Shown here: positions 1,564-8,497 of the stretch, one piece after another | Position numbering within the stretch: the stretch's first letter is position 1 | Layout of the letters: every line of letters starts with the position of its first letter | IMG/VR virus record: IMGVR_UViG_3300025889_000987 | Span: 1-23,214 of that record | DNA from: a virus | Length of the DNA: 23,214 nucleotides | Strand: one strand, 5' to 3' | Made by a program: the position numbers and the translations under genes | Notes under the pieces: generated by a model | Told to the model about the DNA's origin: nothing | The model's input: the letters and a program-made list of their open reading frames with translations, nothing else | The model's database searches: none

Positions 1564-1592
1564 TTGTAATTAGTATTTTTTAATGTTATAAT
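1564..1592 (+). promoter_or_regulatory. Sigma70-type promoter for the tRNA/ncRNA unit
   Basis: The -35 box TTGTAA (1564-1569) and the perfect -10 box TATAAT (1587-1592) are 17 bp apart, and an extended -10 TGT lies at 1584-1586. The upstream block TATTTAAC at 1556-1563 is identical in sequence and spacing to that of the promoter at 8034-8062. The start is predicted near 1599. It lies just after the HNH-like gene and drives the noncoding leader, the small Cys4 protein, both tRNAs and the structured RNA. Confidence 0.8.
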
Positions 1593-1598
1593 AAAACT

Positions 1599-1797
1599 AA
1601 TTATAGGTTTGTTCTATTCTTTAGAAGGTACGATATTGTAAAAACTATCTTTACTCCTTTCTGTGGTTGACTGCTAATCGGATATGCTTTTATTGGTCAT
1701 AGTTCAAATCGCACGCTTGTGTTCGTAGTTTATCTACCTGCGGCAAGGCAGGCACCGTACCCTGCACTAACAACAAAATATAATAATAATAACAAAC
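1599..1797 (+). other. Noncoding leader of the tRNA unit
   Basis: These 200 bases lie between the promoter and the small Cys4 ORF, and I see no open frame of coding character. Modest structure is visible. CCTGC (1737-1741) pairs with GCAGG across a six-base loop just before 1753. TGAC near 1668 can pair with GTCA near 1697, continued by TAAT with ATTG. GGTACG (1627-1632) can pair with CGTACC (1756-1761), closing the whole segment. A tRNA-like fragment occurs at 1665-1710, including CTGCTAA followed by GTTCAAATC, but it does not fold as a tRNA. The stretch may be a structured 5' leader or the remains of a lost tRNA. Confidence 0.35.
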
Positions 1798-1982: not shown

Positions 1983-2056
1983 CAGAGGGTATGATAGTGG
2001 TAGTCGCCCGGCCTTGGAAGCTGGTAGTGAAAGTTCGATTCTTTCCTCTCTGACCA
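1983..2056 (+). tRNA. tRNA-Pro (anticodon TGG), CCA encoded
   Basis: A full cloverleaf can be drawn. The acceptor stem CAGAGGG (1983-1989) pairs with CTCTCTG (2046-2052) through seven pairs including one G-U. The D arm TGAT/GTCG encloses the loop AGTGGTA. The anticodon stem CCGGC/GCTGG encloses the loop CTTGGAA, giving anticodon TGG, which reads the Pro codon CCA. The T arm GAAAG/CTTTC encloses TTCGATT. The discriminator A2053 is followed by an encoded CCA at 2054-2056. It lies nine bases upstream of tRNA-Glu in the same transcript. Confidence 0.93.
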
Positions 2057-2065
2057 CAAACAACC

Positions 2066-2141
2066 GTCAGTATCATCTAGTGGTTTAGGATACCGCCCTT
2101 TCACGGCGGTCACACGAGTTCGAATCTCGTTACTGATACCA
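2066..2141 (+). tRNA. tRNA-Glu (anticodon TTC), CCA encoded
   Basis: The acceptor stem GTCAGTA (2066-2072) pairs with TACTGAT (2131-2137). The anticodon stem CCGCC/GGCGG encloses CTTTCAC, giving anticodon TTC, which reads GAA and GAG. The T arm ACGAG/CTCGT encloses TTCGAAT. The discriminator A2138 is followed by an encoded CCA. The anticodon arm closely resembles bacterial tRNA-Glu. GAA is a very common codon in the genes of this window, which fits the idea that phage tRNAs supplement the host pool. Confidence 0.95.
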
Positions 2142-2149
2142 AACAAAAT

Positions 2150-2358
2150 TATCAACGTATAAACGAAACAGTTATTACTGTGCGTTGACCCTACCATAAG
2201 TGGTTTTCACCCAAGTGTGATTATATTAAAGGGTTTCGGTTTAATTTTAAGATTCCTACTACCTAGGACTGTTATGTCTCGGTGTGAAACTTAGCCAAAG
2301 GTTTCCGGCGTCATAACTACGGTCAACTCACGTTGATAGCTGGATAAACGTAACCAGC
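2150..2358 (+). ncRNA. Unclassified structured RNA following tRNA-Glu
   Basis: No open frame occupies this stretch, but it has many nested helices. P1 pairs TATCAACGT (2150-2158) with ACGTTGATA (2330-2338), nine perfect pairs. P2 pairs GTTGACC (2184-2190) with GGTCAAC (2321-2327). P3 pairs GTTATG (2271-2276) with CATAAC (2312-2317). P4 inside it pairs GAAAC (2286-2290) with GTTTC (2301-2305). Small hairpins fill the gaps: ACAGT/ACTGT (2168-2181), ACCA/TGGT (2193-2204), TCAC/GTGA (2207-2220), ATTAAA/TTTAAT (2225-2245) and TCCTA/TAGGA (2254-2268). After P1 comes hairpin GCTGG/CCAGC (2339-2358), then the terminator at 2372. The helices are mutually compatible and form a multi-branched fold. I checked tRNA, tmRNA and group I intron core signatures by eye and found no match. 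The class is unknown, and the helices were found by hand without energy calculation. Confidence 0.6.
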
Positions 2359-2371
2359 ACTAATTAACACT

Positions 2372-2409: not shown

Positions 2410-2799
2410 ATGGCGAAACAAGAAAAAAAAGAAGATAGAAGTCACCTTTTCAGAGGAGGTGCAGATGCCATTAACAGAAATGGCAGACCTGTCAAAGACA
2501 GATCAGAAGTAAAAACTAATCGTGAACTACGTGCAGATCAATTTATGTTGTTGGTGCGTAAGTTCAGACCTCATCTAAGTAAAGCAGTACAAGTAGCTGT
2601 TACTGTAATGAATAATGAGAAAGCAACTGATACTAACAGATTACGTGCTGCTGCTTTTATTATTCAGACTAACAAAGAACTTATTAAAGAACTTTACGAC
2701 TATCGTTATGATGATGAAGGTGGTGAAGAAATCCAAGAATCTGGTTCTGTGTTTTCATTAAAGATTATTGAAAACGATACAGAAGATAAGGGTACTTAA
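2410..2799 (+). CDS. terS: Terminase small subunit
   Basis: The 129-residue protein directly precedes the large terminase and overlaps its start by one base (TAATG). Small terminases bind the packaging site on phage DNA and deliver it to the large subunit. An N-terminal basic, polar region with G-G-A-D-A-I-N-R-N-G-R-P is followed by helices around residues 35-95, with N-R-L-R-A-A-A-F-I, and an acidic C-terminus. This fits small phage terminase subunits of this length. I chose ATG 2410 because GAGGG lies five bases upstream. An in-frame TTG at 2392 is inside the terminator and has no ribosome binding site. The assignment rests on position, size and composition, since these proteins diverge quickly. 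Confidence 0.75.
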   Translation: MAKQEKKEDRSHLFRGGADAINRNGRPVKDRSEVKTNRELRADQFMLLVRKFRPHLSKAVQVAVTVMNNEKATDTNRLRAAAFIIQTNKELIKELYDYRYDDEGGEEIQESGSVFSLKIIENDTEDKGT

Positions 2800-4289
2800 T
2801 GAGTGATGAAAAGTTTGTACTAGCCCCTGCAAGTGTACCGCAGCAGCAGTTTCTAGCTAGTAACAGTACGATAACACTCTACTCAGGCAGTGCTGGTGCA
2901 GGCAAGACGTTCGCAATTATCTTAAACTTAGTAAAATTTGCAATAGAAGAAAATTCAACTATTGTAGTGTTTCGTAGAACATCTACACAGCTTAGACAAA
3001 ACGGCGGTATCTGGCAAGAAGCGTCTGGTATATTTAAAAGGTTGTTTGGTAAGCAAGTAGTTATAAGAAGTAGAGACTTAGAGATATATCTGCCTAAGTA
3101 TAATTCTACTATTAAGTTTTCTCATTTACAGTACGATTCTGATGTAAATAGTCATTTAGGTGCGCAATACTCCGTTATTTTCTTTGACGAAGCAACCTTG
3201 TTTGATTTTAACACACAGATATTACCTTTAATGGGTCGTTTACGTAATGCAAACGTAAAGTACAGACCTCAGATGTTCTGGGCAACCAACCCAATGTACG
3301 GACATCCTATTGCAGATATGATTAAAGAGTACTACTTAGACGATGAGGGTATTCACATTGCTGAAAGATCAAATATAGAAAGATTCTTTATCGTACAAGA
3401 CGGTAAATTTATCTGGTATGATACTTTAGCAGAAGCAGAAAGTATACACGGTAAGGGTGTACCACGTAGCTTTAGAAGTATTAGGGCACATGTAACGGAA
3501 AATATACCGTTAATGAAAAACAACCCAGATTACTATTACAACTTGCTGGCATTACCACCTATCAAGAGAAAGATATTCTTAGAAGGTTCTTGGTTCTGTA
3601 GAGAAGAAGAAGCTGGTTATTTTAAACGTGACTTTTGTAACGTAGTAGACACACCTCCTCTATCCGTAATAAAAAGGGTAAGAGCATGGGATTTGAGTGC
3701 TACCAAACCATCTACAGCAAACCCTAACCCTGATTGGACTAGAGGTGTGCTGATGAGTAAGGATAAACAAGGTATGTACACCGTAGAAGATTTATCTAGT
3801 CTACGGGACAGACCTTACGAAGTAGAGAAACTCATCTTAGAGACTGCTTTAACAGACCCAGAAGGTACTGTTGTAGTGCTACCAGTTGACCCCGGACAAG
3901 CAGGTATTGCTTATGCAAACGTAGTTAAAGTAAAACTAGCAGAAGCAGGTATTTACTGTAAATTGGTTAAAGTAAATAAGTCTAAACTGATTAGATTTAA
4001 ACCTTTTGCTGCGTTAGCAGAAGCAGGACATGTTCAGTTTGTAGAAGATAATTGGTTAGAAGAAATGTTTGTTGAACTAGAAAGTTTCAACGGCGATAAG
4101 AATGACGGTTATCACGATGATATTGTCGATGCTTGTTCTGATGCTGTACTTGTTCTTAACCAAGGAGCAAGAGAAATACCAGATATGAGTATGCCAGAGT
4201 TATCAGGTACAGTAGCATCTTCTTTCAGCTTTGATAACCTAAAACCTTACAGCCAGCAAAACATGGTAATTCCAACATTTAATTTTTAG
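2799..4289 (+). CDS. terL: Terminase large subunit (packaging ATPase and nuclease)
   Basis: At 496 residues the protein has the normal length for this motor. Walker A is G-S-A-G-A-G-K-T (30-37) and Walker B is V-I-F-F-D-E-A (126-132). W-A-T-N-P (161-165) occupies the place of the coupling motif. The C-terminal RNase H-like nuclease shows its acidic residues at R-A-W-D-L-S (Asp298), V-D-P-G-Q-A-G (Asp364) and H-D-D-I-V-D-A (439-445). Both activities therefore look intact. It pumps DNA through the portal and cuts the concatemer. Translation is coupled to the small subunit by a one-base overlap, with AAGGG upstream, and the portal gene follows 12 bases after the stop. Confidence 0.96.
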   Translation: MSDEKFVLAPASVPQQQFLASNSTITLYSGSAGAGKTFAIILNLVKFAIEENSTIVVFRRTSTQLRQNGGIWQEASGIFKRLFGKQVVIRSRDLEIYLPKYNSTIKFSHLQYDSDVNSHLGAQYSVIFFDEATLFDFNTQILPLMGRLRNANVKYRPQMFWATNPMYGHPIADMIKEYYLDDEGIHIAERSNIERFFIVQDGKFIWYDTLAEAESIHGKGVPRSFRSIRAHVTENIPLMKNNPDYYYNLLALPPIKRKIFLEGSWFCREEEAGYFKRDFCNVVDTPPLSVIKRVRAWDLSATKPSTANPNPDWTRGVLMSKDKQGMYTVEDLSSLRDRPYEVEKLILETALTDPEGTVVVLPVDPGQAGIAYANVVKVKLAEAGIYCKLVKVNKSKLIRFKPFAALAEAGHVQFVEDNWLEEMFVELESFNGDKNDGYHDDIVDACSDAVLVLNQGAREIPDMSMPELSGTVASSFSFDNLKPYSQQNMVIPTFNF

Positions 4290-8095: not shown

Positions 8096-8497
8096 ATGGA
8101 AAAAGCAGATACTAAGAATAAAGAAAATACTCAAGAAGTATTCAAAGCATTAAACCATGAGTTAATGCAAGCAACCTTTGTTGTTATGGTTCCTGACGAA
8201 ATTGATGCTCACGGTGATATTACTGATGCAGCAGAAATCAGAAAAGCCTGTCACAACTTCAATACATTCTGTAGACAACCTAATCTATACCACATGGAGA
8301 ATACAAATTTATTCTCTATCGTGGAATCCTATACAGCACCTACTGATATGTTAGTTGATGGTATTACCATTACTAAAGGTACTTGGTTATGTACTGTTCA
8401 AGTACACGATGAAGTTCTTTGGCAAGATATTAAATCTGGTGAAGTCAATGGGGTAAGTATCGGGGCTGTTGCAAGTGTAGAAAAACTAGAACAATAA
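8096..8497 (+). CDS. XkdF-like (peptidase S78_2) prohead maturation protease
   Basis: The 133-residue protein matches the XkdF-type protease domain. F-V-V-M-V-P-D-E-I-D-A-H-G-D (28-41) is the opening strand and turn. A-A-E-I-R-K-A-C-H-N-F (45-55) is the following helix, L-Y-H (64-66) carries the probable catalytic His66, and V-N-G-V-S-I-G-A (118-124) carries the probable Ser121. These proteases cut the scaffold and capsid protein during procapsid maturation. It stands directly before the scaffold gene. It is shorter than fused XkdF proteins because the small C-terminal domain (A-H-I-A-L-V) appears at the N-terminus of the next ORF instead. It is preceded by a strong promoter but not by a clear ribosome binding site. 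Confidence 0.8.
   Translation: MEKADTKNKENTQEVFKALNHELMQATFVVMVPDEIDAHGDITDAAEIRKACHNFNTFCRQPNLYHMENTNLFSIVESYTAPTDMLVDGITITKGTWLCTVQVHDEVLWQDIKSGEVNGVSIGAVASVEKLEQ

Follow-up and report, generated by a model that had tools for sequence, protein, structure and literature searches.

Gene Content and Layout of the Locus

The window analyzed here is a 23.2-kb virus contig that carries, on its plus strand, a small ORF encoding a Cys4 protein, two tRNA genes, a structured RNA core, an intrinsic terminator and the terminase genes (Table 1). The original prediction had placed between the tRNAs and the terminase a structured RNA at positions 2150–2358, devoid of ORFs and distinct from tRNA, tmRNA and group I introns. 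These exclusions were confirmed. There was no plus-strand ORF of at least 50 aa in this region, and a 71-aa minus-strand ORF (1982–2197) clips its 5' end; covariance-model and ARAGORN searches returned the two flanking tRNAs only, and the region had no match in Rfam 15 at the gathering score. The best match inside it under permissive Rfam settings was to mcrA RNA (window 2297–2325, 12.8 bits, E 1.7) and was probably due to chance.

Table 1. Features of the window from the promoter-like site to the large terminase subunit.
Feature	Position	Strand	Basis or remark
Promoter-like TTGTAA-17-TATAAT, TG before the second hexamer	1564–1592	+	Consensus match only
Leader upstream of the Cys4 ORF	1600–1797	+	In relatives, a second conserved element lies here with the same 3' hairpin at its end
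Cys4 ORF, 59 aa	1798–1977	+	No PHROG match
tRNA-Pro(TGG)	1983–2056	+	
tRNA-Glu(TTC)	2066–2141	+	
Spacer from tRNA-Glu to RNA core	2142–2253	+	Holds 5' strands of long-range helices; unconserved
Long-range helix, 9 bp	2150–2158/2330–2338	+	Predicted fold
Long-range helix, 7 bp	2184–2190/2321–2327	+	Predicted fold
Long-range helix, 6 bp	2271–2276/2312–2317	+	Predicted fold; displaces P2 in MFE
RNA core, short form (P1-P2-P3-GGCGUC-linker-3' hairpin-ACUAAUU tail)	2254–2365	+	R3 match, 3' hairpin, synteny
P1 hairpin UCCUA-CUACC-UAGGA, window variant	2254–2268	+	In MFE; family covariation
P2 hairpin CUG..CGG	2269–2282	+	Homology only; not in window MFE
P3 hairpin GAAAC..GUUUC, loop with (A)GCCAAAG (compare CGCCAAAG in L005)	2286–2305	+	MFE; family covariation
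GGCGUC, possible partner of the P2 loop in many members	2307–2312	+	Invariance
Local P4-like hairpin GUCAAC-UCAC-GUUGAU	2322–2337	+	Core MFE; excludes the long-range helices
3' hairpin (P6) GCUGG-AUAAACGUAA-CCAGC	2339–2358	+	A...GUAA kind; stem covaries
Intrinsic terminator AAAGGGGCAUUAGCCCCUUUUU	2372–2393 (detected as 2372–2391)	+	
ORF at the terminase small-subunit (terS) position, directly upstream of terL	2410–2799	+	PHROG 3330
Terminase large subunit (terL)	2799–4289	+	PHROG 979

Comparison with dinucleotide-shuffled sequences indicated that 2150–2358 folds better than expected (z -2.59, with 3 of 200 shuffles equally good). The value was similar for the core alone (z -2.51), and for 2142–2400, which includes the flanks and the terminator, it was -3.54, with none of 200 shuffles as good. 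Nested long-range helices had also been proposed, and they were present in the predicted minimum free energy (MFE) fold, but comparative data lent them no support as the functional fold. Positions 2142–2253, on which the 9-bp and 7-bp helices draw, have no counterpart in most relatives, including L006, L017, L022 and L027, in which the RNA starts 5–17 nt past a tRNA or shortly past the Cys4 ORF; both helices also compete with the local hairpin at 2322–2337. A structured RNA is found where it was predicted, but the conserved unit is smaller, at 2254–2365. Of the promoter and terminator assigned to the unit, the terminator was found, but the promoter is a consensus match of a type no commoner in the region than expected by chance. 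The leader at 1600–1797 folded no better than chance (z -0.50).

Several features of the neighboring terminase genes were observed in passing. The window TerL is ~98% identical to that of L002. The gap between terS and terL in relatives is occupied by an int-alpA RNA and a homing-endonuclease-like ORF, and window position 2799 represents the empty site. Group I introns interrupt terL in L002 (925–1158 and 1457–1660), L003 (1972–2183), L004 (1703–1913), L020 (1144–1353) and L022 (5597–5805); the search that found these introns identified no group I (RF00028) core in the window terL or RNA.

Identification and Distribution of the RNA Family

TerL relatives of the window were found in IMG/VR and, among isolates, in Curvibacter phage P26059A and Limnohabitans phage DC31. 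The relatives have in common much of the order HNH, Cys4 ORF, tRNAs, RNA, terS and terL, and the gap preceding terS in L005, L006, L017, L018, L022, L026 and L027 contained a shared motif, CCUUAGGRCCG...CGGUUA...AGGCGUC. A pattern search with this motif matched 54 viral contigs against about one expected by our own estimate. Among bacterial and archaeal genomes totalling 257 Gb, the same pattern matched just four contigs, each with a weak model score; these four, and L095, were rejected as members as they look like chance matches. With a relaxed pattern, another 29 loci were obtained; model R3 scored 28 of them strongly, the doubtful exception being L101.

The set analyzed comprised 87 IMG/VR or isolate loci, representing 54 distinct 5' domains. 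As the patterns fix the conserved letters, conservation of letters is partly built into this set, but covariation is not. One 13-sequence alignment (A4) was left out because P3 was misaligned in it.

DC31 and P26059A were the only isolates found to carry the RNA; when two family types were compared with isolates by blastn, no additional one emerged. Searches of whole records, with contigs of up to 354 kb, identified exactly one confident copy in 19 of 20; the L004 record had none. The contigs that carry the RNA are in part T4-like (with RegA, DNA polymerase and Hsp20), and others exceed 200 kb. No family member that was scanned matched an Rfam family, including the manA and wcaG leaders, which were considered because some members precede Hsp20, and no description of the RNA family was found in the open-access literature. 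Since no known family matches, we consider this almost certainly a new family of structured RNA: a compact RNA, kept by shape in dozens of unrelated environmental phages, that has the appearance of a phage RNA gene not described before.

Architecture and Covariation of the Family

All members have a 5' domain, or head, in which P1 directly abuts P2 without a linker, followed by UUA, P3, one base and GGCGUC. The family form of P1 is NCC-ACCUUA-GGN. GGCGUC was invariant in all aligned members, although the search patterns themselves included it. The P2 loop (GACG, GAUG or GGCG) could pair with the CGUC of this element, a suggestion of a pseudoknot in which GUCG forms would have a U-U mismatch.

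Downstream of the head is a 3' module, or tail, of one of two mutually exclusive kinds. The first, present in 36 of the 54 distinct members, the window included, is a hairpin of five pairs that has an A...GUAA loop and is often trailed by ACUAAU; the second, in the remaining 18, is a GGCUGCUGCC hairpin. No member had both or neither. An additional arrangement was noted in L006 (3300–3460), where two A...GUAA hairpins occur in tandem downstream of the head and the second is followed by a GC-rich hairpin resembling the window terminator.

Compensatory changes were seen in P1, P2, P3 and the 3' hairpin. Within the 5' domain, 94–95% of cells were paired, against 69–73% in shuffles, and covariation scores of 0.54 and 0.50 were reached by none of 500 shuffles, with slid controls far lower. 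Covariation was strong in P2 and P3, the latter being compensatory at every pair, and the outer pair of P1 was C-G in 27, A-U in 10 and U-A in 8 of the distinct members. Covariation among homologues was the test that the original prediction had set for itself, and by it a structured RNA class outside Rfam, between phage tRNAs and the terminase, was upheld. These data also bear on whether the region is simply a spacer that folds by chance with no functional RNA. The single-sequence z-scores, only -2.5 to -3.5, are compatible with this idea, but the covariation refutes it for the family, the phage-only distribution also stands against it, and we assign it a negligible likelihood.

A second conserved leader was observed in relatives upstream of the Cys4 ORF or a tRNA (L027 5467, L017 2748, L018 1381, L026 4547 and L015 2958). 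In these relatives it terminates in the same GCUGGA..GUAACCAGC hairpin as the RNA, whereas the window leader has no such hairpin. That the hairpin is common to leader and RNA suggests a module that both use as a 3' end or for protein binding.

The Window Copy as a Probable Family Member

Model R3, from which the window had been left out, gave as its best match in the whole window positions 2254–2312 (11.8 bits, E 0.06), and the 3' hairpin with its A...GUAA loop lies 31 nt downstream. The higher score with R1 (31.4 bits) is partly by construction, the window being inside that model. R2, built without the window and L005, missed the window; with filters off it gave only 4.6 bits, in an alignment that skips the head. 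Pairwise scores of the window were equaled by few shuffles when it was compared with L006 (0 of 500), L027 and L018 (1 of 500 each) and L005 (8 of 500), but did not beat shuffles for L015 and L017. The window core is syntenic with those of L005, L006, L017, L022 and L027. The case for membership is carried by L005, by synteny in the same tRNA-terS slot and by the 3' hairpin, and on these grounds the window very probably holds a divergent member of the family. It is a short form of the RNA, in which P1 is altered and P2 is weak.

Genomic Context, Unit Edges and Module Exchange

Comparisons between loci delimited the unit sharply. L063 and L068 share 120 identical nucleotides that start and stop with the RNA between unrelated flanks, and L055 has its upstream flank from one of these two loci and its downstream flank from the other. 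Similar sharp-edged behavior was seen for L046, L048, L044 and L036, and for L029 versus L075 and L034. Exchange also occurred within the RNA: L037 and L042 have the head and both flanks in common but differ in their tails, indicating that the 3' module was swapped inside one locus. The genes downstream are unrelated to one another (terS, Hsp20, nuclease, metalloprotease and others), and the tRNA-terS slot retains the RNA while TerL has diverged to ~60% identity.

The 5' ends of the members were of two notable types. Of 27 T4-like loci, 14 had TAAATA, the core of T4-type late promoters, no more than 40 nt upstream, compared with 35 of 268 (13%) ORF-upstream windows of the same contigs; because it was counted as a bare motif and the two sets of windows were not placed identically, this is an indication rather than a promoter test. 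At other loci (L022, L043, L027, L099, L110 and L111), CCUUAGG starts 5–8 nt past the end of a tRNA. A tRNA match in L012 (3898–4020) was stretched to 123 nt and is possibly an intron-containing tRNA.

Possible Role and Alternative Explanations

We lean towards the RNA being a discrete, late phage transcript that acts in trans, its head being constant and its tail exchangeable. This reading of the sequences is favored over that of a regulator of neighboring genes because there is one copy per genome, the neighbors change, a late-promoter motif is present upstream of many T4-like members and 5' ends lie adjacent to tRNAs in several others. In the T4-like phages a late promoter immediately upstream would drive its transcription, and in the tRNA-linked phages its 5' end would be cut out of the tRNA transcript and its 3' end would be set by the 3' hairpin or by a terminator. 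The head may serve as a scaffold, and the exchangeable tail may bind some factor of the host, such as an RNA-binding protein, a defence effector or a translation component; this binding might help late takeover or counter-defence. Exchange of the tail suggests that it meets something variable among hosts. A host-directed function in takeover or counter-defence is nevertheless only a tentative proposal, which we consider less likely than not. No protein partner of the RNA was found, and the suggestion that the Cys4 protein is its obligate partner was rejected on distribution: L007 has a Cys4 ORF without the RNA, and in T4-like loci the RNA occurs with no Cys4 ORF beside it.

Several observations favor the alternative that the RNA acts in cis, as a leader forming the structured 5' UTR of the late gene directly downstream and controlling that gene as an attenuator, a riboswitch-like element or an mRNA stabilizer. 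Nearly all loci have a same-strand ORF just downstream, many have the late-promoter motif just upstream, many type-i members end in AAAGUGAGC and a U-rich run near the start codon, and in the window a terminator sits between the RNA and terS. A same-strand ORF is to be expected anyway in compact phage genomes, though, and it is difficult to reconcile one leader with a single copy per genome that precedes different, unrelated genes; we regard cis control as fairly improbable. The sharp edges at 120–140 nt, the changing neighbors and the abundance of group I introns and homing endonucleases in these phages might instead be those of a mobile RNA element, a tiny ribozyme or passively moved cassette conserved through its own movement or splicing rather than service to the phage. 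Such an element would hardly be expected as one intergenic copy per genome with no internal ORF, nor to keep the tRNA-terS slot over the divergence of TerL described above, and with the group I match absent from members we think this origin unlikely.

More specific functions were also weighed. The sequence ACCUUAGGACCGUU is complementary at every position to E. coli 23S rRNA 1918–1931, which raised the idea of an antisense RNA to 23S helix 69–71. An exact 14-mer match arose in 5 of 200,000 shuffles, and one with at most one mismatch plus a nearby second segment in 1 of 200,000; AGGCGUC is complementary near 1828–1834, ~90 nt away, and R1 gave antisense 23S 21.9 bits, compared with 19.3 for the best match in four bacterial genomes (~16 Mb). 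The match was spotted after the fact, however, and the segment is the P1/P2 hairpin, in which the single variable base changes together with its P1 partner (C-G, U-A, A-U); the U variant found in many members would mispair with 23S, and duplex energies for the window, L027 and L006 were no better than those of shuffles. We dropped this explanation, now very unlikely, because P1 covariation accounts for the base that varies, and because U at this position breaks the pairing. A role in DNA packaging, which had also been suggested, would make the RNA a pRNA-like partner of the adjacent terminase, in keeping with its position directly upstream of terS in the window lineage. Distribution spoke against this as well: most members lie elsewhere, beside Hsp20 or nuclease genes or upstream of DNA polymerase genes, including many in T4-like contigs, and L007 has a terS-terL slot without the RNA, leaving packaging barely credible.

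With the discrete trans-acting RNA as the preferred reading, we speculate further, and with some reservation, that the family could constitute a modular system in which a constant head is combined with tails recombining between phages, disabling differing host factors late in infection. Such a system, extending over T4-like, jumbo-sized and PAK/Felix-like phages, would do with RNA what modular anti-defence proteins do. Known non-coding RNA genes are scarce in virulent phages. A small non-coding RNA class with covariation, occurring once per genome in unrelated phages and with a swappable 3' domain, offers a testable entry to RNA-based host takeover or counter-defence. DC31 and P26059A, both in culture, carry it.

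Comparison with Known Phage RNAs

GOLLD and similar large phage RNAs are structured, phage-borne and tRNA-linked, as are members of this family, but are far larger, and none of the members scanned matched them in Rfam. The phi29-type packaging RNA differs in its constant association with packaging genes, most family members not being beside terminase genes. The int-alpA RNA (RF02996) is likewise a structured RNA of the same phages but is a separate element of ~65 nt in another position, between terS and terL; it was located at L002 44–111, L005 4019–4086 and L006 3875–3938.

Small RNAs of phages as such have precedents, namely T4 RNA C and D and PAK_P3 sRNA1 and sRNA2. The Pseudomonas phage PAK_P3 belongs to the wider group, and its sRNA1 and sRNA2 (KC862299), abundant late small RNAs beside tRNAs (PMC4933390), resemble the family in position and in the late timing proposed for it. 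They had no R1 match and were rejected as homologues, and sRNA2, unlike the family, has a tRNA-like GGUUCGAUUCC arm. The published sRNA2 was observed to overlap tRNA-like sequence with this arm in L094 (PAK_P3, 8300–8430), and it may be a tRNA-like RNA.

The T4 RNAs C and D (species 1 and 2, NC_000866), the functions of which were still unknown in 2016 (PMC4933390), have no CCUUAGG, GGCGUC or 3' hairpin module, unlike the family. RNA D was rejected as a homologue, as neither R1 nor R2 matched NC_000866 and homology is unproven by the one 12-mer, GUCGCUACCGGU, that its CCGG-GUCGCUA-CCGG hairpin has in common with L043/L049. In layout the resemblance is closer: the T4 RNAs are likewise small stable RNAs encoded right after the phage tRNA cluster, and rnaD begins beside a tRNA CCA end, as do several members of the family described here.
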